Below are positions 4,098-19,459 of a stretch of 64,000 nt of DNA, piece by piece (position 1 is the first letter of the stretch; every line of letters begins with the position of its first letter). Below the pieces are notes generated by a model, which was not told where the DNA came from, did not search any database, and saw nothing but the letters and a program-made list of their open reading frames with translations. The DNA is taken from the NCBI GenBank assembly GCA_030867875.1, contig JAOWCC010001751.1, forward strand, positions 25,970,369 through 26,034,368, in the 5' to 3' direction. A program made the translations under genes and the position numbers. The stretch comes from Actinernus sp. WN-2022. Its lineage: Eukaryota; Cnidaria; Anthozoa; Actiniaria; Actinernidae.

Positions 4098-4108
4098 TAT
4101 GGCAATGA

Positions 4109-4606
4109 TCAACTAGTTGCGTACTTCTTGTTGTATCTCTCTCTGAATCTATCAACTAGTGGACATAGGTCACTAACTTGATCGTCCAACCAGTTCAACT
4201 CTAATGTAAATCTTTCGATGTCGAGTTCTTCTCCACGCAGATATGCCCTTATTTTATTCAAGATCTTCTGATATGATGTGTACGCAAATTTGCTCATTTC
4301 CGTCTTCCTATTGTAGTTTTTCATTTTTAGTAGTCCTTGAAGCAATAGTCCTGATCCCGATATTGTACCGAGAATGATTGGATTTAGTGTTATAGACCCA
4401 ATGATTACGCCTGTACTTGTGAGACCAATTGACGATAAGTGTAGAATTGTATTAACCTTCTTGAATCGTTTGTATGCTTGCTTGTGGTAGAAGCATTTTT
4501 TGTGGTAGTGAGAATACAGGTTTTTTAGCATTTCGACATCTGCTTCACTCAAGTCCTTGTCTATATGATTGAAGTTGAATATGTCTACTTTCAACGTCTT
4601 TGCCAT
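4109..4606 (-). CDS. Polinton membrane protein, unknown function
   Basis: A 165-residue protein not recognised as a known family. The N-terminal 50 residues are polar and helical with Lys/Tyr/His-rich stretches. Two hydrophobic helices (about 52-71 and 74-94, rich in Gly, Ile, Leu, Ser) are joined by a short turn, suggesting a hairpin membrane anchor. The C-terminal 70 residues are charged and probably helical. It is the last gene of a three-gene minus-strand block (ATPase, coiled-coil protein, this gene). Its ATG lies 11 bp beyond the stop of the coiled-coil gene, with GTATAGCTAT just before it. A virion membrane or assembly role is possible but only inferred. Confidence 0.6.
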   Translation of the reverse strand: MAKTLKVDIFNFNHIDKDLSEADVEMLKNLYSHYHKKCFYHKQAYKRFKKVNTILHLSSIGLTSTGVIIGSITLNPIILGTISGSGLLLQGLLKMKNYNRKTEMSKFAYTSYQKILNKIRAYLRGEELDIERFTLELNWLDDQVSDLCPLVDRFRERYNKKYATS

Positions 4607-4617
4607 ATAGCTATACG

Positions 4618-5778
4618 TTACATAAATTGTTGATACATCTGTTTGTATTCGTCGTCGTCAATCAAGCCATCGTTAGAAAGCTTATTGAGTATCTCGACGG
4701 CTTCGTTAGAAAGTTCGATACTATTATTTCCAGCGTTTTTCGATGCTATTATTAACTCTAGTCTTTCACATAGCTCATTCGGGTTGTTGTAGTACTTTAT
4801 ACGACTTTTGTTACAACCACCTGATTTTTTCGTTCCTAAGTCGATCTTACCACTTTTAGACGTATATGGAGAGATTCCCGAGAGCTTAATCAGCTTGTTG
4901 AATATCCTTTGAGCATCATCAGTGTACAGTCTTCTAGGATTGTAGCGTTTCGTTAGCAACTCCATAAATGAATTATCGACCTTATGGTTTAGTATCTTCT
5001 TACCACTACCATTGTAAGCCTCTAATCTCATCTCTAATAATTTAGCTGGATCGATATACAAATTTCCAAACGTATAATCGGACCCTATTTTTAGACCTGT
5101 GCCAGTCGTTTTCTTAGATGACTTTGGCGTTTCTATGACGTCCTCATCTGGTACGAATACGACTTCCTTCTCTGGTGTCTTTAGTTTTAGCACTTCCTTC
5201 AAGTACTTGCTTGCTGCTAATTTTTGATTGCCTAGTATCTTTATTGTCGTGGGTGATTTAGATGATTTGATTTGCTTGTTCAGTATCGTTATGGCATTCT
5301 GTATTAAGTATTCTGAAGGTATGTCTTTTAAGCTTGGATCGAACCCTAGTTTTTCTAGTCGTTTAGATTCTTGTGCTCCAAAAATTGGTTTTGTACCATC
5401 AATGGCTCCTTTGTCGTTCTCTTCGTCTTCATCTTCGTCTTCCTCGTAATGCAATGGCAGTTTACCAATCCACGATTCTAAGCCTTTAGTAGATCCTTGT
5501 GTTGAGATGGCTTCACTAAGTGTATCGATTGCTCCAGTGATGTTCTCTTGGTTTTCTTGTAGCTGTTCAATCATCTCATCTTGTTTCTTATCAGCCGATT
5601 TCTGCGCCTTTTCGACTGAAGCTGTTACGGGTTGGTATAGCTTTTCGCCAGCTTCTCGTAATGATTGATCACCTAGCTTTTTATTGAGTAATCGTTTCTT
5701 TAAGATTTGCCTATTTTTCAAGAATTCGTTAATTAAGCTTGCTCTTTCTTCTACTGTCTTAATAGTTCTGAACGACAT
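4618..5778 (-). CDS. Polinton coiled-coil protein, unknown function
   Basis: A 386-residue protein. The N-terminal about 110 residues are predicted helical/coiled coil (Lys/Glu/Gln-rich, DKKQDEMIEQLQENQENI). An acidic patch EDEDEDEEN follows near 113-121, then a linker with Lys/Ser/Thr, and a C-terminal domain from about 235 starting FGNLYIDPAKL with YNPRRLYTDDAQRIFNKL. The layout (helical, acidic linker, compact C-terminal domain) suggests a structural or scaffolding protein. No enzymatic motif is seen. It sits between the ATPase and the membrane protein on the minus strand, with TAATATGTATACGT just before its ATG. I do not recognise a named family with certainty. Confidence 0.7.
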   Translation of the reverse strand: MSFRTIKTVEERASLINEFLKNRQILKKRLLNKKLGDQSLREAGEKLYQPVTASVEKAQKSADKKQDEMIEQLQENQENITGAIDTLSEAISTQGSTKGLESWIGKLPLHYEEDEDEDEENDKGAIDGTKPIFGAQESKRLEKLGFDPSLKDIPSEYLIQNAITILNKQIKSSKSPTTIKILGNQKLAASKYLKEVLKLKTPEKEVVFVPDEDVIETPKSSKKTTGTGLKIGSDYTFGNLYIDPAKLLEMRLEAYNGSGKKILNHKVDNSFMELLTKRYNPRRLYTDDAQRIFNKLIKLSGISPYTSKSGKIDLGTKKSGGCNKSRIKYYNNPNELCERLELIIASKNAGNNSIELSNEAVEILNKLSNDGLIDDDEYKQMYQQFM

Positions 5779-5800
5779 ACGTATACATATTAGTTACATA
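5779..5800 (-). promoter_or_regulatory. putative start-proximal promoter motif
   Basis: On the minus strand the ATG at 5778 is immediately preceded by TAATATGTATACGT, containing the GTATAC palindrome also seen at 6566-6592 and 12901-12916. Inferred function. Confidence 0.4.
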
Positions 5801-5878
5801 ATTCGTTACTCTAAGTTAGCGTAACTTTTTGAAATCGTATGTAAATCACACGAAAACCCTCGAATTCTCATTCTCTAA

Positions 5879-6565
5879 CTACGTATTATGCACGTATAAA
5901 CCGTCGAAGTTCTTTCGATACATCTCGGGAATATGCTTAGAAGTCTTATCCAACACCATGAAATCGAATGGTTCTATCGTAGCTTCTCGATATATGTCTT
6001 CGAATTGTTTCCGACTGATGTTTTTACAGTTATCATCAGCAATGTGTCTGATGTCCTTGTTATCTAATCCGCCAAATAGAACGAAGCACTTAGTATTGCG
6101 TCGAATGTATTTTGGCACATCGTAATAGCTTTGACACAAGTAAATGCAGTTACAGTTCTTATTTCTAGATAGCGAAAAGTATTCCTTAACGTTGTTCATA
6201 TTTTTTTTGTCGATCTTAATATCATCGAATACGATAACCTTATTAGCGTCATCATCTAAATCTTCAACTGGTATGATGTCTTCTGGATTGCATAATTCGA
6301 CATTACACGCATCGTCGTCGTCATCTAATTCCTCGTTAATGATATCATGGAATTCTTTTATTAGACTGTACTTATCCTGATGAGGATTTAGAGTATGTAT
6401 CTTACAAGAATCGTACTTCATCCATTTTAAAAGCATATTGGTAAGCAGATTCGTTTTACCTTGACCCGTACTACCAACTAGCATAAAATGGCAATCAGGA
6501 AGCAAGAAGTGATGTTTTGGTTTCTGACTTATTTTTTCAGTATCGTCAAAGTTGATTATATTCAT
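5879..6565 (-). CDS. FtsK/HerA-type genome-packaging ATPase
   Basis: A 228-residue P-loop ATPase. Walker A is GSTGQGKT at 31-38 and Walker B is VIVFDD at 110-115. A sensor-like Gln follows in a strand (IYLCQS, near 142). Size and motifs match the A32-like/FtsK-HerA packaging ATPases that Polintons, adintoviruses and NCLDVs use to pump DNA into capsids. An acidic Asp/Glu run (about 79-85) lies between the two Walker motifs. The gene is divergent from the first fibre gene across a 27-bp shared promoter region. Motifs are intact, so it is probably functional. Confidence 0.92.
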   Translation of the reverse strand: MNIINFDDTEKISQKPKHHFLLPDCHFMLVGSTGQGKTNLLTNMLLKWMKYDSCKIHTLNPHQDKYSLIKEFHDIINEELDDDDDACNVELCNPEDIIPVEDLDDDANKVIVFDDIKIDKKNMNNVKEYFSLSRNKNCNCIYLCQSYYDVPKYIRRNTKCFVLFGGLDNKDIRHIADDNCKNISRKQFEDIYREATIEPFDFMVLDKTSKHIPEMYRKNFDGLYVHNT

Positions 6566-6592
6566 CTACTATAATGTACGTATACAATATAG
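6566..6592. promoter_or_regulatory. 27-bp divergent promoter candidate
   Basis: Only 27 bp separate the minus-strand ATPase ATG from the plus-strand fibre ATG. The core ACGTATAC is nearly self-complementary and is flanked by TATAAT and ATATAG, so both genes see the same motif just before their start. Confidence 0.5.
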
Positions 6593-7213
6593 ATGAGTTT
6601 TACGAAATTTGGAACGATTCGAACTGGAAGCCGCAATGAGTGCATGCATGAGCAAACACCAGTAAGAATAGTTAGTATTAATGCGAAAGAGATTTCACTC
6701 TTATGGCTTCAACGCGATACGGATTGGATGGATATACCCAATTACGAAATACAGCTAACACCAAAAGGTACGAATATGATGAGACTATCATGCCGCCTAT
6801 ACATCTCAAACAACACTGGAGGAGGTAATTTTTGGTTCCGATGGGTCCTATTAACGCCAACGCCAGTTCCAGGGCACCATTTACAAACGATTATTGGTGT
6901 AAGTAATTTACCAGATGCAGCAATTGGCTTGAGAACCAGATGTGCATTTGCGGCACAACCGCCAAGAGATCCAGAGACAGTCGTTTGTATTTCAGACGTC
7001 TCTTTTCATGAGAATTTCGGTAACGGCATCCTACACACGTATAAGCTGCAGTGTAAGATCACTGATACAGGAACGATGGTATTGAATAGACTGTATAATG
7101 GCGCTAATGCGGCATGGAATGGATACGTGAAATCATCAATAATGGTTGAGGAAATCACAGGGATTACTAAAAAAGTTGCTCAAAATGGAATCAACGAATA
7201 CGCATCAAACTAA
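6593..7213 (+). CDS. stalkless fibre/knob-like protein
   Basis: A 206-residue beta-rich protein. From about residue 23 to the end it is clearly homologous to the last about 185 residues of the next gene (shared pattern RIVSINAKEISLLW versus RTVAYIAKEISNLW, FWFRWV versus VWFRWV, HTYKLQCKI versus HTYKLQIKV). The N-terminal peptide MSFTKFGTI also matches the next protein's MSYSIFGTL. It therefore looks like an alternative fibre with the same capsid-anchoring peptide and the same head domain but no collagen stalk. Receptor binding or capsid decoration is inferred. It is divergent from the ATPase and 21 bp upstream of the collagen-fibre gene. Confidence 0.65.
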   Translation: MSFTKFGTIRTGSRNECMHEQTPVRIVSINAKEISLLWLQRDTDWMDIPNYEIQLTPKGTNMMRLSCRLYISNNTGGGNFWFRWVLLTPTPVPGHHLQTIIGVSNLPDAAIGLRTRCAFAAQPPRDPETVVCISDVSFHENFGNGILHTYKLQCKITDTGTMVLNRLYNGANAAWNGYVKSSIMVEEITGITKKVAQNGINEYASN

Positions 7214-7234
7214 TGTAATCATATAATATAAGAG
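7214..7234 (+). promoter_or_regulatory. putative start-proximal promoter motif
   Basis: The 21-bp gap contains TCATATAATATAAGAG directly before the ATG; nearly the same TCATATAATATA lies before the major capsid gene. Confidence 0.45.
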
Positions 7235-8857
7235 ATGAGTTACTCAATATTTGGAACGCTTTACAATGGTACGATAGAGCAAAAGGAAGGTAAGCGTGGA
7301 CCAAAAGGCGATCAAGGAAGCCAAGGAAGCCAAGGGATTCGAGGAATGAAGGGCGATCAAGGAAGCCAAGGAATGAAAGGCGATCAAGGAGGCCAAGGGA
7401 TTCGAGGAATGAAAGGCGATCAAGGAAGCCAAGGAATGAAAGGCGATCAAGGAGGCCAAGGGATTCGAGGAATGAAAGGCGATCAAGGAAGCCAAGGAAT
7501 GAAAGGCGATCAAGGAGGCCAAGGGATTCGAGGAATGAAAGGCGATCAAGGAAGCCAAGGAATGAAAGGCGATCAAGGAGGCCAAGGGATTCGAGGAATG
7601 AAAGGCGATCAAGGAAGCCAAGGGATTCGAGGAATGAAAGGCGATCAAGGAAGCCAAGGAATGAAAGGCGATCAAGGAAGCCAAGGAATGAAAGGCGATC
7701 GAGGAAGCCAAGGGATTCGAGGGTCTGGGCCTGGGTCAAGTGTTATGCATAGTAGTCTAACATTCAATTGTGGCAATTTCCTTATGAAGTCTGGTAATTG
7801 GGCATCATCGAGCAGTGTAAGCTCATTTATGGTTGTATATGACGCATACTCTATGAATAACATCACTCCAGAACATCGAGGTTTTAGGATCCTAGAGACT
7901 TTTAAACCGAACTCAACAGAAACGTTGACTATGACTATACCAAAAAATGATAATACGACTTTAGGGTTAAAAGGCAACAGCACATACACAGTTCGGGTCG
8001 AAGCTTATGCAAACAACATTGGATCCATAATACTAAGCTCTTTATCAATTGAAGAGAATTTGACTTTCATATCAAACACGATAAAAAGTGGAAGGATAGG
8101 ATCTACAAACACTGCTTTCCAAGAGCTAAGCATAACAACATCTGCCAATAGCACAGGTAAACTATCATTTACTTTGAGTCATAATCAGTCAACCAATCAG
8201 CTAATAACTATCTATGTTGCAATCATTGCTGGAGCATTAGATGCAAATACTTTTGTGAATCCTACTGTCTTCGATGATAATGAGTACATTATTGAACAAA
8301 GAGTGCAAGAAGTGGTTCCTATTAGGACAGTCGCTTATATAGCAAAGGAAATTTCGAATTTATGGAGTCATGCAGACATGGAGTGGGGAGACATACCACA
8401 TTTCTCCATCACGATATCTCCCAAGGAAGCAACGAATTTAATTCGATTATCGTGTACGATTTACCTTGGATGTGACGCTGGAGGAGCTAATGTGTGGTTT
8501 CGATGGGTCGTAACTACAGGTCAAGGATTACTGGCTTATGTCAGTACGAATTCATTACCAAATAATATCCTTCAAACCCGTAACAGAGCTAGCTTTGGCT
8601 CGCAATTAGCCATCAATCCAGAAACTCTTGCCTGCGTGTCCCATACTGGGTTCCACGTCCCATTTAATAAAACCCCACATACATATAAATTACAGATAAA
8701 AGTGAAAGACACAGGAACCGTTACAATCAATAGAATATACAACAATGGAAACGCTAAGTGGAATAGTTACGTTACCTCAAGTATGATTTTAGAAGAAGTC
8801 TCAGGGATCGCGAGGAGTTTCGCTAGTAATGGGGATGTGATATGTTCATCAGAATAA
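7235..8857 (+). CDS. collagen-stalk fibre-like protein
   Basis: A 540-residue protein in four parts. An N-terminal peptide MSYSIFGTL is shared with the preceding gene. A collagen-like stalk of roughly 49 Gly-X-Y triplets spans about residues 19-167 (units such as GMKGDQGSQ and GGQGIR). A beta-rich domain spans about 168-350. A head domain at about 355-535 is homologous to the whole preceding protein. Collagen triplets imply a trimer, so a trimeric fibre projecting from the capsid is the natural reading. The stalk DNA is a 63-bp tandem repeat and so can change length easily. The start at 7235 is favoured by the TATAAT-like motif just before it. Confidence 0.75.
   Translation: MSYSIFGTLYNGTIEQKEGKRGPKGDQGSQGSQGIRGMKGDQGSQGMKGDQGGQGIRGMKGDQGSQGMKGDQGGQGIRGMKGDQGSQGMKGDQGGQGIRGMKGDQGSQGMKGDQGGQGIRGMKGDQGSQGIRGMKGDQGSQGMKGDQGSQGMKGDRGSQGIRGSGPGSSVMHSSLTFNCGNFLMKSGNWASSSSVSSFMVVYDAYSMNNITPEHRGFRILETFKPNSTETLTMTIPKNDNTTLGLKGNSTYTVRVEAYANNIGSIILSSLSIEENLTFISNTIKSGRIGSTNTAFQELSITTSANSTGKLSFTLSHNQSTNQLITIYVAIIAGALDANTFVNPTVFDDNEYIIEQRVQEVVPIRTVAYIAKEISNLWSHADMEWGDIPHFSITISPKEATNLIRLSCTIYLGCDAGGANVWFRWVVTTGQGLLAYVSTNSLPNNILQTRNRASFGSQLAINPETLACVSHTGFHVPFNKTPHTYKLQIKVKDTGTVTINRIYNNGNAKWNSYVTSSMILEEVSGIARSFASNGDVICSSE
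7352..7603 (+). repeat. 63-bp coding tandem repeat of the collagen stalk
   Basis: Four consecutive identical 63-bp units (starts 7352, 7415, 7478, 7541), each encoding seven Gly-X-Y triplets, with variant and partial units on both sides. Unit length is a multiple of nine, so gain or loss keeps both frame and triplet register. Confidence 0.9.
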
Positions 8858-8874
8858 TCTAACCAAACTGTATA

Positions 8875-9615
8875 ATGCAAACTACGTTATTCTTTGATAG
8901 TAAGAAAGGATCTGGTTCATCTGAAAACTTCACGACATACTTCAATCCTCCATTGGAGCTAGATATTACGAAAAACTATCAAATCTCGTTAATCAATGCA
9001 TCTATGTGGTACTCTTGGTACAACATAACGAGTGCAAATAACAAGTTCAAATACTACAATGGTACAGCTTGGAAGACGATAACATTATCACCAGGAGCAT
9101 ACAACGTAATTGACATAAACGACACTATGAAGCACCATATGAAGCAAAATAGCGATTGGGACGTTGCTAACAGTAAGTACTATGTCGATATTAAACCTAA
9201 TTACAACACACTGAAGTCTATGATTGAGATACGAAATGGTTATAAAGTGGATTTCACTATTGACGAAAGTTTTAGGACGATACTTGGTTTCGAATCTAAG
9301 ATAGTTCAAGGCAACGGCTTTCACGATAGCGATAAGATTGTGCAAATCACGGAGGTCGATACTATTCAAGTACACTGCGATCTAGTAACAGATTCTTACA
9401 TAAATGGCAGTACAAGTTCGGTCATCTACTCATTCGTTCCATCGGTTCCTCCAGGTTACTTGATCAACATCCATCCTAACCAACGATTCGATATGAACAT
9501 ATCGAAAAGATCGATTAACAGTATATCGTTCTCGCTTAGAGATCAAAGTGGTAATTCGATAAGAATGAATAATGAGAGAGTTACGTATTACATCCATCTT
9601 AGTGAGATTGTGTAA
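8875..9615 (+). CDS. penton-like minor capsid protein
   Basis: A 246-residue protein with the pattern of Polinton penton (single jelly-roll) proteins. It opens with LFFDSKKGSGSSENFTTYF and NPPLELD, followed by NYQISLINASMWYSW, FRTILGF near residue 141, an N-linked-rich loop, and a C-terminal VTYYIHLSEIV strand. It would sit at the capsid vertices and probably anchor the fibre-like proteins encoded just upstream. Length is normal for the family and the frame is intact. It is located between the fibre and major-capsid genes, as expected for a capsid module. Confidence 0.85.
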   Translation: MQTTLFFDSKKGSGSSENFTTYFNPPLELDITKNYQISLINASMWYSWYNITSANNKFKYYNGTAWKTITLSPGAYNVIDINDTMKHHMKQNSDWDVANSKYYVDIKPNYNTLKSMIEIRNGYKVDFTIDESFRTILGFESKIVQGNGFHDSDKIVQITEVDTIQVHCDLVTDSYINGSTSSVIYSFVPSVPPGYLINIHPNQRFDMNISKRSINSISFSLRDQSGNSIRMNNERVTYYIHLSEIV

Positions 9616-9620
9616 CCAAT

Positions 9621-9953
9621 ATGTATATGCTATTAACGAGAGAACGATATACCAAAAGGAAAGTCATTGGTGGAAACCTCATTGGGAACGTATTAGACAA
9701 AGCAAAGAGTACGCTTTCAACAGCTAGCAAGATAATAACGAGACCCATTAATGCTTTAAAACCCGTTATTACTAAGGCTCTTCCATATGTTAAACAGAAA
9801 GCCATCAATGTTGGCACTAAAGCGATCCTTCAAAAAGTAAAGCAGGGCGTTAGAGACGTTTCGTCAAATCCAGAGGTTCGGAAAGTCTTGAATGACCGGT
9901 CGAGAGCTATCTTATCGAATCTTATTGCTGGAAGTGGCATGAAACGATTGTAG
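9621..9953 (+). CDS. small basic Polinton protein, possible core/minor virion protein
   Basis: A 110-residue Lys/Arg-rich protein starting 5 bp after the penton gene; a second in-frame ATG lies two codons downstream. After a basic N-terminus with VIGGN, a central helical region and a C-terminal GSGMKRL follow. The GG-type sites near both ends could be cleavage sites for the element's own adenain-like protease, by analogy with adenoviral core precursors. That analogy is inference; no domain is recognised. Position between the penton and major capsid genes supports a virion role. Confidence 0.6.
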   Translation: MYMLLTRERYTKRKVIGGNLIGNVLDKAKSTLSTASKIITRPINALKPVITKALPYVKQKAINVGTKAILQKVKQGVRDVSSNPEVRKVLNDRSRAILSNLIAGSGMKRL

Positions 9954-9957
9954 TGAC

Positions 9958-9978
9958 TTTTGTATAATCATATAATAT
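9958..9978 (+). promoter_or_regulatory. putative promoter of the major capsid gene
   Basis: TATAATCATATAATAT lies directly before the ATG at 9979, closely similar to the motif before the collagen-fibre gene. Confidence 0.45.
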
Positions 9979-11397
9979 ATGACTGAAGTAATTAGCCAAT
10001 ATTTTCAATTCGATGAATCGAACATTATCGATAACTCAACTACGAAATTCGAATATATCGAATACCTTCCAAGAGACTCTAATAACATGGATAAAGATGG
10101 CCAAAGGATCATCGAGACTCGAGATGAAGACGTATACCTGCTCCCACATAAGGCTATGTTGGAGGTGCGTGGTAAGCTGCAAACAGCTGCTAATGCTGAT
10201 TATAATGCAACAGATATTGTATCGCTTGTGAATAATGCGTGGAGTCTATTTTCAAGTGCTCAATATCAGATTAACAACCAAATAGTAGAAAGTGTGAATG
10301 ACTACCTACCAGAAGCAAGCACAATTCTAAACACAGTCATGTTTTCTGATGACTATAGCCGTAGTACTGCTAGTAATATGCTTTGGTTTAGAGATACATC
10401 AACGGGTACACCAACTTTAAAGTACACAACTGCAATTGCTGCAGTCGATGATGCTGCTAATGCAGCTACCGTTCGAACAGGAACGCAAGCCTTAGTTGTT
10501 GCATACATACAAGACCAAACAGCTAATCTAGGTTTCACTGCTCGACAGGCTATCACGACAGGAGCTAAACAAGTATCCCTGCTTCTACCACTATCGCAAG
10601 TTTTCGGATTCTGTAAGGATGTAGATACTGTGTTTCGGAGTGTCAAACATACGCTTATCCTAAACAGAGCAACAGCAAACCAGTATATCATGAAAGATAA
10701 TGCTGCAGGCGTTGGTAAATTTAAGATTACTCACCTATCACTATGGATGCCTAAAGTCGTTCCTTCACTAGAAATTCAATCATACATTGATGCCAAACTA
10801 GTAAGTGGTTACATAAAGGACCTATACTTCGAGCAGGTACGTGTATACAGAACGATGTTCCAAGCCGTTGAAACGAACCCAACATGGAGAATTACAACAC
10901 AGCCAGGTAGCGAACTTCCAAGACATGTCTTCATTGCATTACAGTCTAGTGATCGTCATCCAACAGCTAATGCACAGAATGTCAATAATATGATCTTCGA
11001 TAATGGGAACCTAACGAGAATCAGTGTTCGAATCAATAGTGTACAACATCCAGAAAGAGAAGTAGAATGTAACTTCACTCCAGCTAATAGGAACTATAAT
11101 AGATCGTACATGATGTTCATGGATGCCGTTAACAAATACCAAGATACCGATACAGGTAGTCAGCTTAGTGTTGAGGATTGGGCATCATTGTATCCAATAC
11201 ATCATTTCGACGTTAGTAAGCATTCAGAGCAGCTGAAAACAAGCATGGCTGATATTGAAGTCCGATTTACCCTAGGTGGGAACTTCAGAAACATAGCTAA
11301 CAATGCTGATATACCTTATTATGTTTATGCCGTAATCCTATCCGATAGGCACTTACAACTACAAGGCTTGTCTGGTAGAATGAATGTAATCGTGTAA
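9979..11397 (+). CDS. major capsid protein (hexon-like, double jelly-roll)
   Basis: A 472-residue protein with the hallmark start of Polinton major capsid proteins: MTEVISQYFQFDES, then EYLPRDSNN and the LLPHKAMLEVRGKL strand near 53-66, QYQINNQIVESVNDYLPEA, a long insertion with HPTANAQN near 330, and a C-terminal VRFTLGGNF and VYAVILSDR. Two stacked jelly rolls form trimeric capsomers in this family. Length is typical and the frame is intact. The gene sits between the penton/small-basic pair and the two paralogous hydrophobic proteins, with a TATAAT-like motif touching its ATG. Confidence 0.93.
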   Translation: MTEVISQYFQFDESNIIDNSTTKFEYIEYLPRDSNNMDKDGQRIIETRDEDVYLLPHKAMLEVRGKLQTAANADYNATDIVSLVNNAWSLFSSAQYQINNQIVESVNDYLPEASTILNTVMFSDDYSRSTASNMLWFRDTSTGTPTLKYTTAIAAVDDAANAATVRTGTQALVVAYIQDQTANLGFTARQAITTGAKQVSLLLPLSQVFGFCKDVDTVFRSVKHTLILNRATANQYIMKDNAAGVGKFKITHLSLWMPKVVPSLEIQSYIDAKLVSGYIKDLYFEQVRVYRTMFQAVETNPTWRITTQPGSELPRHVFIALQSSDRHPTANAQNVNNMIFDNGNLTRISVRINSVQHPEREVECNFTPANRNYNRSYMMFMDAVNKYQDTDTGSQLSVEDWASLYPIHHFDVSKHSEQLKTSMADIEVRFTLGGNFRNIANNADIPYYVYAVILSDRHLQLQGLSGRMNVIV

Positions 11398-11426
11398 ATT
11401 TTATCTAATTATACTACATATACGAA
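11398..11426 (+). promoter_or_regulatory. putative start-proximal promoter motif
   Basis: CTACATATACGAA directly precedes ATG; TATACGAA is repeated exactly before the phospholipase gene at 12909-12916. Confidence 0.45.
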
Positions 11427-11894
11427 ATGAGCTATATTAGAACAGGATTGAGTCTAAGCGAATCTCAAAAAGAATCAATTAAGAATGCTTACATCAATAA
11501 GAAAACAGTTAGCTTGAGATTGAACAACAATCAACTAACAGGAAGCGACTTTCTAGGACTGACTAAAGCGCAACGTAAGAAGGTGGTTGAAGCTAAAAGA
11601 GGAATGTCTGGAGTCCAACTAAAAATTAGTAAGACGCAAGTCTCAAAACAAGGCGGATTTTTAGGTGGATTGGGTAATTTAGTGAAAATGATTGCTCCTA
11701 TGTTCTTGAAGAAAATCCTACCAGCTCTTGGAATGGCTGCTGCAACTGGAGCAATATCTGGTTCTGTCTCTAAGGCTGTACAAGGAAAAGGCATTAAGAA
11801 AAAGAGATGTAGACCAAAAAAGAAGGGCAAAGGCTTGATACTAGGACCAAATTCGCCTTTTAAGGGCATACCATTACTTGGAGCAATTCTCTAA
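11427..11894 (+). CDS. hydrophobic/basic Polinton protein, copy 1
   Basis: A 155-residue protein of a family that recurs in cnidarian Polintons but has no firm function. The N-terminal third is polar (SLSESQKESIKNA), then LTKAQRKKVVEAK, and the anchor KTQVSKQGGFLGGLG near residue 70. A hydrophobic Gly/Ala/Leu-rich segment follows (about 78-115), then a Lys/Arg cluster and the ending KGLILGPNSPF. It is a tandem paralogue of the next gene (KTQLSKQGGFIGALL). A minor virion protein, perhaps membrane-active after proteolysis, is an inference from hydrophobic plus basic composition and position beside the protease. Confidence 0.65.
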   Translation: MSYIRTGLSLSESQKESIKNAYINKKTVSLRLNNNQLTGSDFLGLTKAQRKKVVEAKRGMSGVQLKISKTQVSKQGGFLGGLGNLVKMIAPMFLKKILPALGMAAATGAISGSVSKAVQGKGIKKKRCRPKKKGKGLILGPNSPFKGIPLLGAIL

Positions 11895-11905
11895 TCATAT
11901 TCAAA

Positions 11906-11932
11906 TTATTGTCTAACGATATCATATATAGA
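11906..11932 (+). promoter_or_regulatory. putative start-proximal promoter motif
   Basis: ACGATATCATATATAGA precedes the ATG at 11933 and supports that start over the upstream in-frame TTG at 11909. Confidence 0.45.
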
Positions 11933-12448
11933 ATGCCAACGAATTATGTAGAAACATCATTAAAGTTGTCTGAGGCACAGAAACGTAAGATAGCTTCAGC
12001 TGTTCAAAACAAGACATCGACTACCATTAGACTATCATCTAGCGACTATCAAGGTAGCGATAAGATTAAATTGACTAAGCAGCAAATCGATAGAATCCAT
12101 AAAGCTAAATCGAAAAACGTCGGAGTAGATATTAAACTCAGTAAGACGCAGTTAAGTAAGCAAGGCGGGTTCATTGGGGCTTTGCTTGGTGGCTTAGCGG
12201 CAAGCCTGCTTCCCAATCTCTTAGGCGGTATCTTCGGTAAAGGAATCGCTCTACCAGGTACTAATCCAAAGTCAAGTGGAAGAGGATTCAATCTTTCAGC
12301 CCTACGACCACCACCGTTTATTGGATCTTGGAATTCTGATGGTACGATTGGTTATGGAGTAAAAAAAAAGATCTCAAGAAAGAAAACAGCCAAAGGCCTC
12401 GTGCTTCCAGGGACAATCCTAAAGCGTCCATATTACGGAACGCGCTAA
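11933..12448 (+). CDS. hydrophobic/basic Polinton protein, copy 2
   Basis: A 171-residue paralogue of the preceding protein with the same order of parts: SLKLSEAQKRKIA, LTKQQIDRIHKAK, KTQLSKQGGFIGALL, a hydrophobic Gly/Leu segment with GGIFGKG, a basic patch and AKGLVLPGTIL near the end. The ATG at 11933 is chosen because the promoter-like ATATAG motif sits just before it. A run of nine A at 12361-12369 lies in the basic patch, where the -1 frame leads without a stop into the protease. The zero-frame C-terminus still matches the paralogue, so I treat this gene as normally terminated. Confidence 0.68.
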   Translation: MPTNYVETSLKLSEAQKRKIASAVQNKTSTTIRLSSSDYQGSDKIKLTKQQIDRIHKAKSKNVGVDIKLSKTQLSKQGGFIGALLGGLAASLLPNLLGGIFGKGIALPGTNPKSSGRGFNLSALRPPPFIGSWNSDGTIGYGVKKKISRKKTAKGLVLPGTILKRPYYGTR

Positions 12449-12480
12449 GACCACTGAGCAACATCGATATCGATAGCATT

Positions 12481-12900
12481 ATGAAAAAACTAAAGATCGC
12501 CAACTACATAGGTGCTTACAGTAAAGATATGCTACCTGATAGGATCAATAATGACGGGTGTGTAGTAATCAATATTCAAGACTATTTTAAAGGCGATGGT
12601 ACTCACTGGGTTGCCGTATATAACAATCATGATAATAACTACATCGAACACTTCGATTCATTCGGCCTATTGCCAGCAGAAGAGGTAATAGAGCTTATGG
12701 AAACAAGCAACAAACAAATAGAGTACAATAGCTCGCAGATTCAAGATATGGATAGCATTATGTGTGGTTATTATTGCATATTCTACATTCTAGAACGCTC
12801 AAATGGTAGAAAACCTATCGACATCTTGTTAGACTTTCAGTTCAAACCATCTATGTTCAATGAATTGCTTATACAGCACTTCGCTTACGATATTATGTAA
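12481..12900 (+). CDS. adenain-like cysteine protease
   Basis: A 139-residue protease of the adenovirus/Ulp1 type. The catalytic order is visible: His42 in GTHWVAVY, Asp59 in EHFDSFG, Gln86 in SSQIQDMD and Cys95 in MCGYYC. In this family the enzyme matures capsid and core precursors. The ATG at 12481 leaves a short N-terminus. Nine upstream in-frame codons (PLSNIDIDSI-like) resemble the usual N-terminal helix and the frame stays open back to 12340 without an ATG, so the true start may be upstream or non-AUG. No clear TATAT motif precedes the ATG, unlike most neighbours. Confidence 0.88.
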   Translation: MKKLKIANYIGAYSKDMLPDRINNDGCVVINIQDYFKGDGTHWVAVYNNHDNNYIEHFDSFGLLPAEEVIELMETSNKQIEYNSSQIQDMDSIMCGYYCIFYILERSNGRKPIDILLDFQFKPSMFNELLIQHFAYDIM

Positions 12901-12916
12901 CGATATTGTATACGAA
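12901..12916 (+). promoter_or_regulatory. putative promoter that fixes the phospholipase start
   Basis: CGATATTGTATACGAA directly precedes the ATG at 12917. The GTATAC/TATACGAA core recurs at 6566-6592 and before 11427, so this ATG is preferred over an upstream in-frame start near 12860 that overlaps the protease. Confidence 0.5.
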
Positions 12917-13777
12917 ATGACTAAGATATATTGTCTAAGACAAAAGAAACAAACTGAGACGAAAGACGAGCATATCGTAAAGACTCAAAATGGAAGGACT
13001 CGTCTGGTAGGTGCATGTGTAGAATGCGGAAGTCAAAAGTCGAAATTCGTGAAATCTACACAAGGCGGTAGTATGTTGCCAGGAGCACTAGCTATTTCAG
13101 CTGGAATACCACTTCTTGCTGGAGCCGCCGCATTATCAATGGTTCCAGGTAGTGGAAAGCTATTTTCGACACTTGCTAAGGGTGCTACACAGGCAATAGG
13201 TAAGAAGATAAGAAGCAAAGCTGCCGATTTCATCCAAAAAGAAGGTCGAACCATATTGAATCTAGCATCTAAGAAAGTTCGTGGTGGCCAGATACAACAT
13301 CCAATGAGTATGTATACTGACGTAACAGATCCAGCATCCGAATTCTATGATGATCATATGAAAACTATGAAGAAAGGAGGTAAGTTAGACATTCATAAAG
13401 CAATATTAAAGGTTGCACCTAAAAAGGGATTCACGCTACCAGGTCATCATTATACAGGACCTGGGAATCCCTTAGAAAATCAATTGACTTATGATAAGAC
13501 AGGTCGAATATTAGAGATTTACGATAAGCCAACTGGCAAAACTGATGCTGTGAGTATGCAACACGATGTCGATTATTCTATCTGTGATGATGACGTCAAA
13601 TGCAAAAATGAAGCTGATCGAAAAATGGTCAAATCATTAGACGAAATTCCATGGAAGGATCGCCAATGGGGTCATGCCTTAGCAAGGAATGCTATCGCGA
13701 CTAAAGCAAAGCTTGGAATGGGTGCTAAGAAGCCAAAAAACGGAAAAAGCCGTCGAGTGAAGAAAACTGGCAAGTAA
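12917..13777 (+). CDS. phospholipase A2-domain virion protein
   Basis: A 286-residue protein. The N-terminus (YCLRQKK, NGRTRLVG and CVECGSQKSKF, residues 5-44) looks like a DUF5679-type small zinc domain missing one cysteine. A hydrophobic Gly/Ala stretch spans about 53-75. The C-terminal half has a parvovirus-VP1-like phospholipase A2: calcium loop YTGPGNPLE at 179-187 and catalytic QHDVDY at 215-220 (His216, Asp217). Such domains breach endosomal membranes in parvoviruses; the same role is inferred here. The last codons form a Lys-rich tail carrying the slippery heptamer A AAA AAC at 13735-13741, where the integrase frame begins in -1. Confidence 0.82.
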   Translation: MTKIYCLRQKKQTETKDEHIVKTQNGRTRLVGACVECGSQKSKFVKSTQGGSMLPGALAISAGIPLLAGAAALSMVPGSGKLFSTLAKGATQAIGKKIRSKAADFIQKEGRTILNLASKKVRGGQIQHPMSMYTDVTDPASEFYDDHMKTMKKGGKLDIHKAILKVAPKKGFTLPGHHYTGPGNPLENQLTYDKTGRILEIYDKPTGKTDAVSMQHDVDYSICDDDVKCKNEADRKMVKSLDEIPWKDRQWGHALARNAIATKAKLGMGAKKPKNGKSRRVKKTGK

Positions 13778-13828
13778 AACTAGCAGATGAATTGCATAGA
13801 CCAATAAGACGTAAATTTACTCGGCGGC
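13735..13828 (+). promoter_or_regulatory. candidate -1 programmed ribosomal frameshift signal
   Basis: A AAA AAC (13735-13741) is in exact zero-frame register of the phospholipase gene. A 7-nt spacer (13742-13748) follows. Then 13749-13761 can pair with 13816-13828 as a 13-bp stem with two wobbles (13753/13824 and 13759/13818), closing a 54-nt loop. A -1 slip enters the integrase frame, which is open from 13729 on. Heptamer, spacer and stem match the classical layout. Activity is untested, and a fixed 1-nt indel is the alternative. Confidence 0.6.
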
Positions 13829-14700
13829 GCGTTATAGCTAATCACATTGATGAAATATGGTGTTCTGATCTCGTTGAGATGCAACAGTTTAGCAAATGGA
13901 ATAAGGGCTATCGATACCTTCTCATGGTTCTAGACGTCTTTAGCAAGTTTGGTTGGATCTTACCATTGAAAGATAAGAAAGGCGAAACAGTTATGAAAGC
14001 TTTTCAAACGATATTCAAGGAAGGTAGAGAGCCAAAATATCTATGGGTTGATAAGGGTAAGGAGTACTACAATAAGAATGTGAAAGAGCTATTGGACAAA
14101 CATAGTATACAAATGTATTCAACTGAGAATGAAGAAAAGTCTTCTGTTTGCGAGAGATGGAATAGAACGATCAAAACTAAAATGTGGAAGCAATTCACTG
14201 TCCAAGGCAATACGCAGTATTTAGATATGCTGCCTAGAATATTGATACAGTACAATGGTACAAAACATTCAAGCATCAAAATGACTCCTATCGAAGCATC
14301 TAAGAAGAAGAACGAAGGAACTGTGTACTTCAATCTATATGGCAATATGGAGTCATTACAATCGAAACCAAAATTTAAGGTTGGCGATAAGGTTCGAATA
14401 AGTAAGTACAAGCGTAAAGTGTTTGACAAAGGCTATACTCCGAATTGGACTGAAGAAGTGTTTACAGTTGATAGAATCCAATATACGAACCCTATTACAT
14501 ACAAATTGAAGGACTCGAATGGTGAAGAAATACAAGGTTCTTTCTACGAACCTGAACTATCGAAAGCGACTCAAGAAATCTTCAGAATCGATAAAGTCAT
14601 TAGAAGGAACTACAAGAAAAAACAAGCTCTAGTATCGTGGAAAGGGTATAGCGATGAATTCAATAGTTGGATACCATTTAAGAATCTAGATTCGATATAG
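13741..14700 (+). CDS. RVE-family integrase with chromodomain, reached by presumed -1 frameshift
   Basis: Counted from 13741 the frame gives 319 residues. A basic N-terminus (LADELHRPIRRKF) is followed by the catalytic triad Asp43 (WCSDLVEM), Asp104 (VDKGKEYY) and Glu138 (CERWNR). An SH3-like domain (FKVGDKVRISKYK) comes next, and a C-terminal chromodomain (about 282-319, VSWKGYSDEFNSW) likely to read histone marks. It joins element ends to the target, giving the 6-bp duplication. There is no in-frame ATG between the stop at 13726 and the Met after Asp43, so a normal start would delete a catalytic residue. The nearest alternative is TTG at 13792. No promoter-like motif precedes it. Confidence 0.9.
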   Translation, partial: RKKPSSEENWQVKLADELHRPIRRKFTRRRVIANHIDEIWCSDLVEMQQFSKWNKGYRYLLMVLDVFSKFGWILPLKDKKGETVMKAFQTIFKEGREPKYLWVDKGKEYYNKNVKELLDKHSIQMYSTENEEKSSVCERWNRTIKTKMWKQFTVQGNTQYLDMLPRILIQYNGTKHSSIKMTPIEASKKKNEGTVYFNLYGNMESLQSKPKFKVGDKVRISKYKRKVFDKGYTPNWTEEVFTVDRIQYTNPITYKLKDSNGEEIQGSFYEPELSKATQEIFRIDKVIRRNYKKKQALVSWKGYSDEFNSWIPFKNLDSI

Positions 14701-14756
14701 ATGCATGCTAAATTAATCAATTAACCACGTTTGAACGCACATATTAAATTGACAAT

Positions 14757-14782
14757 AATTTATATATATAGTCGTTATATAC
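14757..14782 (+). promoter_or_regulatory. putative start-proximal promoter motif
   Basis: TTTATATATATAGTCG followed by TTATATAC touches the ATG at 14783. Confidence 0.45.
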
Positions 14783-15025
14783 ATGAACGATAACAATACC
14801 ATAGAACCAATCAAAAGACTAAGAGGTCGACCACGAATGTATGACGACATTGAAAGGAAGCATCGAAAAACTAAGTACATGCTAAGTAAATCATGGTTCT
14901 GCTTAACGTGCGAAATCTATAAAGACTACACGATGGCTGGTAAATCAAGTCATATTAAGACCAAGAAGCACAAACGCAGCCAAACGCACCTAGGTTTAAA
15001 AACATATTTTTTTATCTATAGTTAA
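14783..15025 (+). CDS. small AT-hook and C2H2 zinc-finger protein
   Basis: An 80-residue basic protein. Residues 13-20 (LRGRPRM region) are a good AT-hook core. Cys40, Cys43, His57 and His63 form a C-x2-C-x13-H-x5-H finger of the matrin/U1-like type (WFCLTCE and SHIKTKKHKR). Both parts bind nucleic acid in other proteins, so an AT-rich DNA-binding role is likely: regulation, packaging or origin binding at the element ends. It lies between integrase and polymerase with a strong TATATA motif before it. Specific function unknown. Confidence 0.65.
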   Translation: MNDNNTIEPIKRLRGRPRMYDDIERKHRKTKYMLSKSWFCLTCEIYKDYTMAGKSSHIKTKKHKRSQTHLGLKTYFFIYS

Positions 15026-15033
15026 TATATAGG
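15014..15033 (+). promoter_or_regulatory. putative promoter of the polymerase gene
   Basis: TATAGTTAATATATAGG directly precedes the ATG at 15034 and overlaps the end of the zinc-finger gene. Confidence 0.45.
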
Positions 15034-18000
15034 ATGATGAACGAATCGAATCTCAATAAATTGTCTAAATCGAAACTTATCGAATTGATCTTGAAACAAA
15101 ATACTATAAGACGTCCAAAAATTGATGAAAACATCCTCTTACCACCAGCTCAATTCAGAGACAACCGACCAGTTCCTACTCCACGAAGAAGCGTTAAGGA
15201 CATGATCGAACGCTACGAGGAAAACATCATCCTACCACCAACTCGATTCAGAGATGACTACAAACCAATCCCAGCTCAGAGGACTATCAAAAGACCTGTT
15301 CCTGCTACAAGAACTAAGATCATACAACTAGATAGAGCTATGAAAGGTTCAATCAGATCATTTGAAGTCGCCATTAAGAATCAAAAGGACCCACTAGTAC
15401 AACTAACCACTACAAGAAGAGGCATTCAGAATCAATTCGAAAAGCTATTGATTGAGACCAAAGGTTACAAATTCGTTGAAACAATAAAGGTTACATTCGA
15501 AAAACAGCTAGACGAAGACAAGACAACAATCAAAACGGCTTATTTCAACAGCAATGCATTCACAGTAATCAATAAAACCAACATCGTGGAAGGACTACAA
15601 TCATCCAAACAACAAATACTAAACAAAATAGCGCAATGGATCTCAGAGGGTTCAGGATGGACCATAGAGACAATTGACAAACACTACATCAACATAGTCA
15701 AGTATGAGCCTATGAAAGGAAGCAGCTACATCAAACTACCAGCAGAGCTTAGAAATTCGGCTAAAGGCTTGATCAACATGAAAAACATCGACGACGAATG
15801 CTTCAGATGGTGCCACGTAAGGCACTTGAATCCACAGGAAAAATATCCTCAGAGAATCAAGAAGAGCGATAGAAAATCTGCGAAGGACCTAGACTATTCT
15901 AACATCGAATTTCCAGTAGCTACCAAACAGTACAATAAAATCGAAAAGCAAAACAATATTAGTATCAGTGTCTTTGGATACGAAGAAAGGAAGCCATATC
16001 CCATATTCGTATCAAAAGAAAAGTACGACGATCATATGGATCTGTTACTGATTACGGAGAATACGAACAAGCATTACGTGTTAATAAAAGACTTCGACAA
16101 GTTCATGTATAACCAAACGAAACACAAGGAGAGAAAGCACTTTTGCAAGTATTGCCTACAATGCTTCAAATCAGAAAGAGTCCTAATCAACCATAAAGAA
16201 GTATGCATTGAAGTAAATGGTGAGCAAGCAATCCAAATGCCTACCAAATCGAACAATATGCTACGATTCAAGAACTATAACAAGAAACTACCAGCTATAT
16301 TCGTTATCTATGCAGACTTCGAAAGCATAACACGCAAAATCGATGGATGCATGCCTAACAATAACGACTCATATACGGAAGCATATCAAAAGCATATCGA
16401 CTGTAGTTATGGATACAAACTAGTTTGCCGCTATGATGATCGATACAGCAAGCCCTTGAAAACGTATCGAGGAGAGAACAGTGCATACAAATTCCTTGAA
16501 GAAATGCTTAATGAAGTAAAATGGTGTCAAAATACGATAAAGAACAATTTCAATAAAGATATGGTGATGACCAAGAAAGACAAACTAGACTTCAAAGATG
16601 CTACCAAATGCCATATCTGCGATATCGAATACCTAGTAAACGACATCAGAGTTCGAGATCACTGCCATATCACTGGAAAATACAGAGGATCGGCTCATCA
16701 AATATGCAATCTCAACTTCGACATAAAAGCTGAAGAAATCAAGATCCCAATCTTCTTTCACAATCTTCGAGGATATGACTCTCATCTAATTATGCAACAG
16801 ATCGGCAAAGTCATCAAGAATCATCCATACATAGACAAGAATGGTAATAAAAAATACCATAATCTCAACGTAATCCCTAATAATATGGAGAAGTATATGG
16901 CATTCATGCTAGGCAATAACCTCACATTTCTCGATAGTTTCCAATTTATGGGTCAATCACTTAGCACATTAGCAACTAATCTTCCAGAAGACAAATTTAT
17001 ATACACCAAGAAAGACTTCGCAAACGACAAGCAATTTGAATTAGTAAAAAGGAAAGGAATCTATCCATACGACTTCATGGACGACTTCGAAAAATTCGAC
17101 TACAAACTACTTCCAATAAAGGAGGACTTCTATAGTATCCTAAACGATGAACACATTTCCAACGAAGACTACGAACATGCTCAAAACGTCTGGAATTCTT
17201 TCAAAATGGAATCAATGGGTAATTATCATGACATCTATTTGAAAATCGACATACTTCTCTTGGCAGACGTCTTCGAAAATTTCAGATCTATGTCGATTTC
17301 GAATTACGGCCTCGACCCATGTCACTATTTCACGACTCCCGGTCTAAGTTTCGATGCTATGCTTAAAATGACCAAAGTCGAATTAGAGCTGATCACTGAC
17401 ATAGATATCTACCAGTTCATTGAGAAGGGCATGAGGGGTGGCACTAGTTACATAGCTCATAGATACGCTAAAGCTAATCATGAATATCTAAACGATTACA
17501 ATAAAGACGCTCCAAATAGCCATATAATCTACCTCGATGCTAATAACCTTTATGGCTATGCCATGAGCGAATACCTACCTACTGGAGGATTCAGATGGCT
17601 AACCAAAAAAGAGATCGAAAATACGAACCTAGCTAAGTATGACGAGCATAGCAAAAAAGGACTCATAATCGAGGTCGATTTAGAATACCCTAAATCTATA
17701 CATGACGATCATAACGACTATCCGTTAGCAGTAGAAAAGATGTGCATAGATAACGACATGCTATCAGACTATTGCAAAGACATCCAAAAGAAGCACAATA
17801 TGTCAATTGGTACTACACGCAAGCTTGTTCCGAATCTAAACGATAAGACTAAATATGTGCTTCATTATAGAAATCTACGATTATACACCCGCCTAGGAAT
17901 GAAGATCATAAGGGTTCATCGAGTTCTAGAGTTCAACCAAAGTCCATGGCTAAGAGAATATATCGATTTCAACACTCAGAAGAGAACCATAGCTACGAAT

Positions 18001-18798
18001 CAATTCGAAAAAGACTACTATAAGCTTCAAAACAACAGTATCTTTGGTAAGACCATGGAGAACGTGAAAAAACGATGCAACGTGAAACTACTAACCGATA
18101 AGAAAAAACTATTGGAACTAGCTAGCAAACCAACATATGTGAGCAGTAAGATCTTCAATGAAGACCTAGTAGCTGTCCACCAAATCAAGAATACGATAAC
18201 ATTGGATAAACCGATATATGTTGGAATGTGCATACTAGACCTATCCAAAACGTTAATGTACGACTTCCACTACAATTACATTAAGAAGAAATACGCAAAT
18301 CCTCAACTACTGTTCACAGATACAGACAGCCTAATGTATCAGATCGAAACTAAGAACGTATATAGAGATTTCCAGATCGACAAAGATAGATTCGACAACA
18401 GCGACTATCCAGTCGATTGTCCATTCTACGATAAGAATAACAAGAAAGTAATTGGTAAGTTCAAGAACGAATGTGCTAATGGCTTCAAACACATAATCGA
18501 ATTCGTAGGATTGAGATCAAAGATGTACAGCTATATGAAAGACGACAATTCAAATTCGAAAACGGCAAAGGGCATTAAGAAGAACACCATCAAGAAACAG
18601 ATCAAACATGCCAACTATAGAGATACATTGCTAAATAGGACTAAGATGTCACATACAATGAAGACAATTCGAAGCGTGAATCATCAATTGGGAAGCTATG
18701 AGATCAATAAGACAAGTCTATCATGCTACGATGATAAAAGATACATATTAGAAGATGGAATTGAGAGTTACGCATATGGACATTATAAAATACAATAA
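15034..18798 (+). CDS. polB: protein-primed family B DNA polymerase
   Basis: A 1254-residue intact polymerase. The N-terminal about 360 residues are basic and Pro/Arg-rich. A C2H2-like finger (HFCKYCLQCF) lies near 369-378. Exonuclease motifs are YADFES (426-431), NLRGYDSHL (about 577-585) and YLKIDILLLADVF (735-747). An HNH/endonuclease VII-like insert (CHICD...RDHCHITGKYRG) lies at about 527-560. Polymerase motifs A, B and C are YLDANNLYGYAM (833-844), NNSIFGKTMEN (1000-1010) and FTDTDSLMY (1094-1102). Polinton PolB is thought to replicate the element from its ends using a terminal protein. All key residues are present. It reads toward the right TIR. Confidence 0.96.
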   Translation: MMNESNLNKLSKSKLIELILKQNTIRRPKIDENILLPPAQFRDNRPVPTPRRSVKDMIERYEENIILPPTRFRDDYKPIPAQRTIKRPVPATRTKIIQLDRAMKGSIRSFEVAIKNQKDPLVQLTTTRRGIQNQFEKLLIETKGYKFVETIKVTFEKQLDEDKTTIKTAYFNSNAFTVINKTNIVEGLQSSKQQILNKIAQWISEGSGWTIETIDKHYINIVKYEPMKGSSYIKLPAELRNSAKGLINMKNIDDECFRWCHVRHLNPQEKYPQRIKKSDRKSAKDLDYSNIEFPVATKQYNKIEKQNNISISVFGYEERKPYPIFVSKEKYDDHMDLLLITENTNKHYVLIKDFDKFMYNQTKHKERKHFCKYCLQCFKSERVLINHKEVCIEVNGEQAIQMPTKSNNMLRFKNYNKKLPAIFVIYADFESITRKIDGCMPNNNDSYTEAYQKHIDCSYGYKLVCRYDDRYSKPLKTYRGENSAYKFLEEMLNEVKWCQNTIKNNFNKDMVMTKKDKLDFKDATKCHICDIEYLVNDIRVRDHCHITGKYRGSAHQICNLNFDIKAEEIKIPIFFHNLRGYDSHLIMQQIGKVIKNHPYIDKNGNKKYHNLNVIPNNMEKYMAFMLGNNLTFLDSFQFMGQSLSTLATNLPEDKFIYTKKDFANDKQFELVKRKGIYPYDFMDDFEKFDYKLLPIKEDFYSILNDEHISNEDYEHAQNVWNSFKMESMGNYHDIYLKIDILLLADVFENFRSMSISNYGLDPCHYFTTPGLSFDAMLKMTKVELELITDIDIYQFIEKGMRGGTSYIAHRYAKANHEYLNDYNKDAPNSHIIYLDANNLYGYAMSEYLPTGGFRWLTKKEIENTNLAKYDEHSKKGLIIEVDLEYPKSIHDDHNDYPLAVEKMCIDNDMLSDYCKDIQKKHNMSIGTTRKLVPNLNDKTKYVLHYRNLRLYTRLGMKIIRVHRVLEFNQSPWLREYIDFNTQKRTIATNQFEKDYYKLQNNSIFGKTMENVKKRCNVKLLTDKKKLLELASKPTYVSSKIFNEDLVAVHQIKNTITLDKPIYVGMCILDLSKTLMYDFHYNYIKKKYANPQLLFTDTDSLMYQIETKNVYRDFQIDKDRFDNSDYPVDCPFYDKNNKKVIGKFKNECANGFKHIIEFVGLRSKMYSYMKDDNSNSKTAKGIKKNTIKKQIKHANYRDTLLNRTKMSHTMKTIRSVNHQLGSYEINKTSLSCYDDKRYILEDGIESYAYGHYKIQ

Positions 18799-18936
18799 AC
18801 TAAAATCGATCTTCAATTTCTTCATTCATTGCTCTTTGATTTCTTCATTCGTTACTCTTTACTCTTTGATTTCTTCATTCATTACTCTTTCCATATGCTA
18901 GCATTCATCATTCTTTCGCACACTACTCTTCGCTCT
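18799..18936. repeat. TTCATTC-rich short repeats between polB and the right TIR
   Basis: Three imperfect copies of TTTGATTTCTTCATTC plus TTACTCT lie at about 18834-18892, continuing as ATTCATCATTCTTTCGC. No gene is seen. Confidence 0.7.
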
Positions 18937-19459
18937 TACCATGCACCAGCATCCATTACATAGAGAAGATGCAAGATACCTCGAACGCACTATGAAATAG
19001 AAAGAAAGGAAAATACTATAGAAGAAACTCGCAGAAGCCAATATATGGCAATAGCGGATAGCAGGCAAGGCAATGAAGCCATTAGAATGGATAGCCTAGA
19101 ATGCAACTATGAAAAGTTGAATACTATAGTATGAGAAGAACGAAGAGAAGAATTCGACATCCAAAGATTGAAACCAGCCATGGAGATTTCCAAAGATTGA
19201 AACCGGTTATGGAGATTTCCAAGAATTTGACATCCAAAGATTGAACTGGTTAAACCGGTTATGAAGAATTTCAAGAATTCGACCACGCCCTAAATTGACC
19301 ACGCCCTAAATAATTCCAAGGATAGTAGTACAGTAGTACAGTAGTATCGAGGGTGGGGAGAGACCTTCTTGAGGTCGAGACCTTCTTTGAGGTCGACAAC
19401 GGATTATTTTGATCTCGAAGAGATTGAAATGGTCCGGTGCCCCCACCCTCTATACTACT
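18937..19459. repeat. Polinton right terminal inverted repeat
   Basis: Reverse complement of 2980-3467, slightly longer because of an insertion of about 16 bp and one extra GGTTTCAATCTTTGG-like unit. It ends in CT before the duplicated AGCGTA. The inverted copy of the terminus lies at 19340-19358. Confidence 0.95.

Follow-up and report, generated by a model that had tools for sequence, protein, structure and literature searches.

A candidate −1 programmed frameshift joining a phospholipase A2 to the integrase of an Actinernus Polinton

Introduction

Programmed −1 ribosomal frameshifting on the heptamer A AAA AAC is a familiar device of retroviruses, where it operates at sites such as the gag-pro junctions of MMTV and HTLV, and in bacterial IS elements, transposase frameshifting takes place on sites of the A AAA AAG type. 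The stable structure that accompanies eukaryotic −1 frameshift signals usually lies ≈5 to 9 nt downstream of the heptamer. Polintons encode capsid proteins and are presumed to assemble into virions. In the adintoviruses, −1 sites have been proposed from sequence at the C-termini of Penton and between Hexon and Adenain (yielding “Hexain”) (PMC11071296).

Here we describe a Polinton in which the gene for a parvovirus-type phospholipase A2 (PLA2) is followed, in the −1 register, by an integrase frame that has no usable start codon. It lies in a 64,000-nt stretch of the Actinernus sp. WN-2022 genome (the window), which is part of a contig (C813) of a 1.39-Gb assembly. Our literature search, which covered few subscription journals, found no publication on a PLA2–integrase frameshift. 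Like the retroviral A AAA AAC sites, the junction has this same heptamer, the usual spacer length, and a downstream stem, and it would join an enzyme, also an rve-fold integrase, to the product of another ORF. It differs from them in that the Polinton is a DNA-replicating element and no retroelement, and in that the upstream protein is a phospholipase rather than Gag; any packaging or polyprotein cutting would be hypothetical here. With the bacterial IS elements, the locus shares the dependence of a DNA element's integration enzyme on a −1 slip, whereas the Polinton is eukaryotic and virus-like, its integrase is of the retroviral type, and its upstream ORF itself encodes an enzyme. The sites proposed in adintoviruses belong to a virus group that is related in the wide sense and invoke the same mechanism, again proposed from sequence, but the excerpted account (PMC11071296) concerns other genes and includes no PLA2–integrase case, and the Polinton described here comes with a survey of 70 copies.

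If the proposal is true, the dose and delivery of the integrase would be set at translation, as they are in retroviruses, and the locus would stand as a clear instance of −1 frameshifting in a DNA-type mobile element of eukaryotes. It would also account for the truncation or splitting of the integrase by gene callers in such elements, and it bears on how a Polinton integrase gets to a new host genome.

Results and discussion

The Polinton and its gene content

The window contains a complete, intact Polinton/Maverick element of 16,480 bp (2980–19459), which is bounded by identical terminal inverted repeats (2980–3250 and 19189–19459; 271 nt each and 100% complementary to one another, with additional arms farther in) and by a 6-bp target duplication, AGCGTA, directly at both sides. 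Pfam identifies a double-jelly-roll capsid protein (PF21738, E = 5.9e-22), a packaging ATPase of the A32 type (PF04665, E = 3e-5, above its cutoff), and an rve integrase with a chromodomain (PF00665, E = 8.1e-11; PF00385, E = 7.8e-6). The protease is weakly similar to ASFV S273R (E = 2.3e-4), and its Pfam C48 and C5 matches fall below the cutoff. A Pfam search of the polymerase-type ORF at 15022–18798 gave no polymerase match; the motifs YGYAMS and FTDTDS were noticed in it by eye. The same ORF holds an Endonuclease VII-like stretch (Endonuclease_7, residues 518–564, below the Pfam cutoff). A collagen-like protein is encoded 5′ of the capsid gene, at 7232–8857, and contains direct repeats at spacings of 27, 9, and 27 nt, and a reverse transcriptase ORF (495–1904; PF00078, E = 2.3e-30) lies beyond the limits of the Polinton.

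The named protein matches are to hexacorals (Oculina patagonica, Stylophora pistillata, and Corynactis), and one PLA2 homolog (P0220) is annotated within a “Corynactis coral adintovirus.” The adintovirus is defined, in the excerpted source, by an OTU-bearing PolB together with a BLAST-recognizable Hexon (PMC11071296).

The junction between PLA2 and integrase

The PLA2 gene, identified by translation and Pfam, occupies 12917–13777 on the + strand, as do all features described below, and we take its frame as the 0 frame. Its 286-residue product begins with a DUF5679 domain, continues with a phospholipase A2 domain of the parvovirus type, and ends in a tail of basic character (Pfam matches PF18930, E = 4.7e-9, and PF08398, E = 1e-7 at residues 170–262). 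The DUF5679 domain that opens the protein (12917–13050) also has an HNH_5 match below the cutoff, and some fused relatives begin likewise. The integrase frame, which encodes the rve core and the chromodomain, extends from 13729 to 14700 in the −1 register relative to PLA2 and is open after a stop at 13726. Its next ATG, at 13879, corresponds to residue 51 of P0122 and thus lies beyond Asp47, a residue that is invariant in 25/25 aligned integrases and that we take to be the first catalytic aspartate. Most normally starting ORFs of the element have an AT-rich box directly 5′ of the ATG, which by eye is absent at 13879.

Within the overlap of the two frames lies the heptamer A AAA AAC (13735–13741), in 0-frame register and followed by a 7-nt spacer (13742–13748). 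Heptamers of the form X XXY YYZ occur in register nine times across the 4779 codon positions of 14 ORFs of the element; two of the nine are AAAAAAC, including the one at the junction, which is the only such heptamer within the PLA2 ORF. An earlier note on this DNA had claimed this −1 layout and the heptamer with its spacer, which were recovered here at the same positions, as well as the lack of a promoter-like motif before the integrase, judged here by eye.

We consider it probable, on the sequence evidence, that −1 programmed frameshifting at this site yields a PLA2–integrase fusion. Most ribosomes would terminate at 13775–13777 and release PLA2 by itself. The stem 7 nt downstream would pause a minority of them, which would slip one base back on A AAA AAC and read on in the integrase frame to produce the fusion. 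We infer both the occurrence of the slip and its frequency. We see no other way in the sequence by which a complete integrase could be made. Through the fusion, the integrase would be placed alongside a protein of the capsid or one active on membranes, in which case the integrase might travel in particles and PLA2 might have a role in the virion.

Two other routes to an integrase can be weighed at the junction itself. The first is internal initiation of a separate integrase, which could use a non-AUG codon or, in relatives, an ATG lying inside the PLA2 gene. Among the best 120 of 5227 integrase matches, 13 of the 89 unfused clusters start with MG.., and several of these starts are consistent with an ATG that the conserved QWGH stretch of the PLA2 gene contains when read in the −1 frame, so that some relatives could initiate internally. 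In the window, however, the ATG of that stretch (13666), although in frame, is separated from the integrase by stops at 13702 and 13726, and the sole CTG, GTG, TTG, or ACG codon of the integrase frame between 13729 and 13879 is a TTG at 13792. Many database records of 316 residues with an “LSEEEN” start look like TTG starts assigned by a bacterial gene caller, as we infer from the replacement of L by M. Internal initiation is accordingly a very improbable account of this locus.

The second is that splicing or an alternative transcript connects the integrase frame with a start farther upstream, a route to which we assign a marginally higher but still very small probability. NCBI gene models of Oculina patagonica do fuse PLA2 and integrase (P0080, P0251, P0253, and P0254), but these models leave out either the junction or some of the integrase, which to us suggests software dodging the frame change. 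The 11 AG dinucleotides within 13691–13800 are each preceded by 20 nt of at most 45% pyrimidine; splicing therefore lacks an acceptor with a pyrimidine tract near the junction. In addition, the excerpted description of 134 intact vertebrate Mavericks reports intronless ORFs (PMC8097293).

The downstream stem

Frameshifting would draw on a stem whose 5′ arm (13749–13761, GCCGTCGAGTGAA) is coding in both frames and whose 3′ arm (13816–13828, TTTACTCGGCGGC) is coding in the integrase frame alone. The arms form 13 bp, two of them G-U, and the distance of 7 nt from the heptamer is within the range of ≈5 to 9 nt given above for eukaryotic signals. The minimum free energy (MFE) of 13742–13850 is −25.9 kcal/mol (z = −2.23), a value equaled or bettered by 4/200 shuffles. 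When codons across 13780–13849 were redrawn synonymously with the dual-coded part kept fixed, an equally stable stem starting 4 to 10 nt past the heptamer arose in 1/2000 draws, and an overall MFE as low arose in 56/2000. A sliding scan of the element found a stem at least as good at 2/4034 positions, the site's own neighborhood included. The arginine codons of 12 element ORFs are dominated by AGA (85), followed by CGA (38), AGG (22), CGT (17), CGC (14), and CGG (6), and two of the six CGG codons sit in the 3′ arm. Both the 13-bp stem and the GC-rich arginine codons of its 3′ arm in an AGA-preferring element had been pointed out in the earlier note, and both hold up. The stem is real and rare, and it may stimulate slipping.

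Copies in the same genome

With the integrase as query, 124 copies were scored in the same genome as the best matches among 6399 first-look candidates, and the junctions of 70 of these were read (30 returned automatically and 40 picked for variety). The heptamer is exactly AAAAAAC in 68/70 junctions. Of the two exceptions, L068 keeps the register with a longer run of As, and L087 has one extra A, which produces an in-frame fusion with a single open frame of 622 residues. In 68/70, the integrase frame itself has no upstream ATG, the exceptions being L087 and L088. The PLA2 frame ends with the usual basic tail in 66/70; it is fused in L087 and broken by small indels in L088, L101, and L118. Thirteen of the 124 integrase copies, L087 among them, fall within 8 Mb of one contig (C635, 140.24–148.11 Mb), a local pile-up of Polintons.

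These counts bear on the reading of the locus as a degenerate copy, in which a one-base indel would have split an ancestral in-frame fusion and left no product. In-frame fusions are indeed known in other lineages. Against this, the inverted repeats of the element are identical, the split register is the same in 68/70 copies, the integrase match is free of internal stops in 121/124, and the PLA2 tail is conserved in 107 of the best 120 of 1363 PLA2 clusters. On these grounds, the pseudogene reading was set aside, and as a general case, it is hardly tenable. The Polinton is young and mobile: the integrase is identical across all 322 residues in 12 copies, the window's included, and therefore elements so arranged must have moved recently, barring a master copy as the source of the enzyme.

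Among the 43 haplotypes, the heptamer varies at 0/7 sites (the inserted As of L068 and L087 are not counted as sites), the spacer at 4/7, with changes that jointly alter residues of both frames, the 5′ arm at 1/13, and the 3′ arm at 2/13. Variable sites number 12/54 between the arms (13762–13815), 22/72 in 13829–13900, and 15/30 in the stretch 5′ of the heptamer, in which exchanged PLA2 genes are included. Taken alone, the lack of variation in the heptamer is unremarkable because the neighboring 13762–13815 varies at just 12/54 sites. The copies read, which are 88.75 to 100% identical over 13780–14100, are not independent because they are closely related, partly recombined, and best-scoring.

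Folding of each of the 43 haplotypes gave a complete helix except in four: L110 and L115 have one disrupted pair, as has L108, and L088, whose integrase frame has an upstream ATG, has lost four arm bases. In the 17 distinct rows, 98.6% of stem cells are paired, as opposed to 30 to 44% for slid versions of the stem. Covariation was sought in these 17 rows, and 0/13 pairs had changed on both sides, with a score equal to that of shuffles. A one-sided change from G-U to G-C is present in 7 of the 17, and the T/C variation at 13818 in the 3′ arm retains pairing with G. Covariation is hard to expect in this stem because the 5′ arm is locked by coding in two frames. The three 4-fold degenerate third positions of the 3′ arm are invariant, whereas elsewhere in 13780–14170, 25/37 such sites vary; this invariance is only suggestive. 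Residues TRRRV at the 3′ arm are found in 52/59 PSSEE-type rows, 0/16 NAKNL-type rows, 10/24 short-start rows, and 11/32 other rows; this difference follows the tree and was set aside as evidence at the RNA level.

The frameshift fusion put forward in the earlier note is thus upheld in part. The heptamer, the −1 register, and the lack of an upstream ATG are retained in sister copies, of which only 1/70 is an in-frame fusion, but the stem covariation that the note had named as support was not found among the 13 pairs.

PLA2 genes apparently exchanged at the cassette border

Twelve longer stretches around sister junctions were compared with the window. Their PLA2 proteins are 81 to 97% identical to that of the window in six and 36 to 40% identical in the other six (in L131, this refers to the main match). 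Five of the six diverged PLA2 genes run into the window's cassette with the register unchanged; the sixth (L118/L131) has its frame interrupted by a small indel 5′ of the heptamer. At the DNA level, 5/9 copies compared have an identity to the window of only 50 to 62% until 53 nt before 13780, then 88 to 100% in the last 8 nt 5′ of the heptamer and 93 to 98% onward to 13779. Two copies, L110 and L115, have just 3/8 matches in those 8 nt, a low score that arises because a 3-nt insertion, with both frames kept, shifts the fixed windows. In L104 and L124, the drop in identity lies farther upstream (41 to 43% beyond 350 nt). An abrupt change in DNA identity 8 nt 5′ of the heptamer was seen in L077, L084, L094, L102, and L118. 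The pattern is best explained if PLA2 genes recombine onto a common integrase cassette that would start at the slip site. On this explanation, these copies also cannot count as wholly independent evidence.

Relatives in protein databases

Beyond this genome, we considered the best 120 clusters of 5227 for the integrase, of 1363 for PLA2, and of 3108 for a fusion (P0002). Among the 120 PLA2 clusters, the C-terminal pattern KN[GV]K[SGNR][RLC] occurs in 107 and a longer tail in 101, and the residue before KN is S in 60, P in 41, T in 4, and K in 2. For the seven peptide pairs tried, with P, S, or T before KN, the −1 text KKR.KP... permits only NCA AAA AAC. Read in two frames, 107 of these 120 PLA2 clusters would therefore imply the same heptamer. 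This presumes that the −1 text, known from records that are fused or longer, comes from the very copies in question, a point that protein records are unable to establish.

Among the 120 integrase clusters, 31 carry PLA2 within a single record, and the search with the P0002 fusion added 36 new clusters, 34 of which also hold PLA2. The junctions of the resulting 65 fused clusters comprise 8 whose text is that predicted for a run lengthened by one A, 17 of the NAKNL type, 5 of the ALSxND type, 4 that read the 0 frame beyond the heptamer and then join, and 31 that are otherwise built or look spliced. A PLA2–integrase protein therefore recurs in these Polintons, and in our reading, the junction type of the window makes this protein from two frames. 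In a FastTree tree rooted on one long outgroup branch, with labels set by text patterns, the NAKNL fusions form one side of a branch with an SH-like support of 99, outside all PSSEEN-labeled rows, and the ALSxND fusions fall among the PSSEEN-labeled rows. The PSSEEN-type label needs 19 changes on this tree, in part a consequence of classing truncated gene calls as “other.” An AlphaFold model of one natural fusion (P0256) has a mean pLDDT of 55.7 and a pTM of 0.28, with values under 50 at residues 235–279; this interval between PLA2 and integrase is predicted to be a flexible linker.

The main rival to ribosomal frameshifting is transcriptional slippage, in which the polymerase would add an A on the A6 run so that some mRNAs encode PLA2 and integrase in a single frame; the protein product is nearly identical. 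The 8 clusters with the text of one extra A are what such slippage would lead one to expect, as are the A6 run at this junction, the A9 run at the protease overlap described below, and the longer genomic runs that exist at both places (L068 and L087 at the junction and L064 at the protease run). Cellular polymerases, however, usually need longer runs for slippage, the run is exactly six in 68/70 copies, and slippage has no need for a stem 7 nt downstream. We regard it as unlikely, though less so than the other alternatives, and retain ribosomal frameshifting as the preferred reading.

Scans of IMG/VR with the window integrase, an integrase alignment, an 18-base junction pattern, and a PLA2 alignment gave no relative; of the 49 loci with the 18-base pattern, 0 had a PLA2 or integrase gene by tblastn. 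GTDB contigs gave five loci. The best of them (L001) encodes an integrase that is 39% identical and has its own ATG and a longer N-terminus, and tblastn found no PLA2 at that locus. The contig that carries this Polinton-type integrase is filed under a Candidatus Nomurabacteria MAG and looks like eukaryotic or viral contamination.

A possible second recoding site at the protease

The cysteine protease frame (12340–12900) is −1 to the ORF at 11933–12448, and its first ATG, at 12481, falls in a stretch that, as we take it, resembles the first helix of adenain. In the overlap of the two frames (12340–12448), the sequence A AAA AAA (12361–12367) lies inside a run of nine As, in the register of the upstream ORF. 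The A9 run is kept in 24 loci and is A10 in one (L064). In the six longer stretches that resemble the window, no ATG precedes the equivalent of 12481, and the L129 frame is open no earlier than the run. The protease frame is thus a possible second recoded enzyme, a lead and not a result. A broader and rather doubtful reading would have −1 recoding used twice in this Polinton, to append the protease to a small upstream protein (at 12361) and the integrase to PLA2; both enzymes would then be limited, particle-carried extensions of virion proteins, with the integrase tethered to a membrane-active enzyme. In four of the six diverged stretches, an ATG stands immediately 5′ of the protease domain, and the protease there may start normally; L131 lacks such an ATG.
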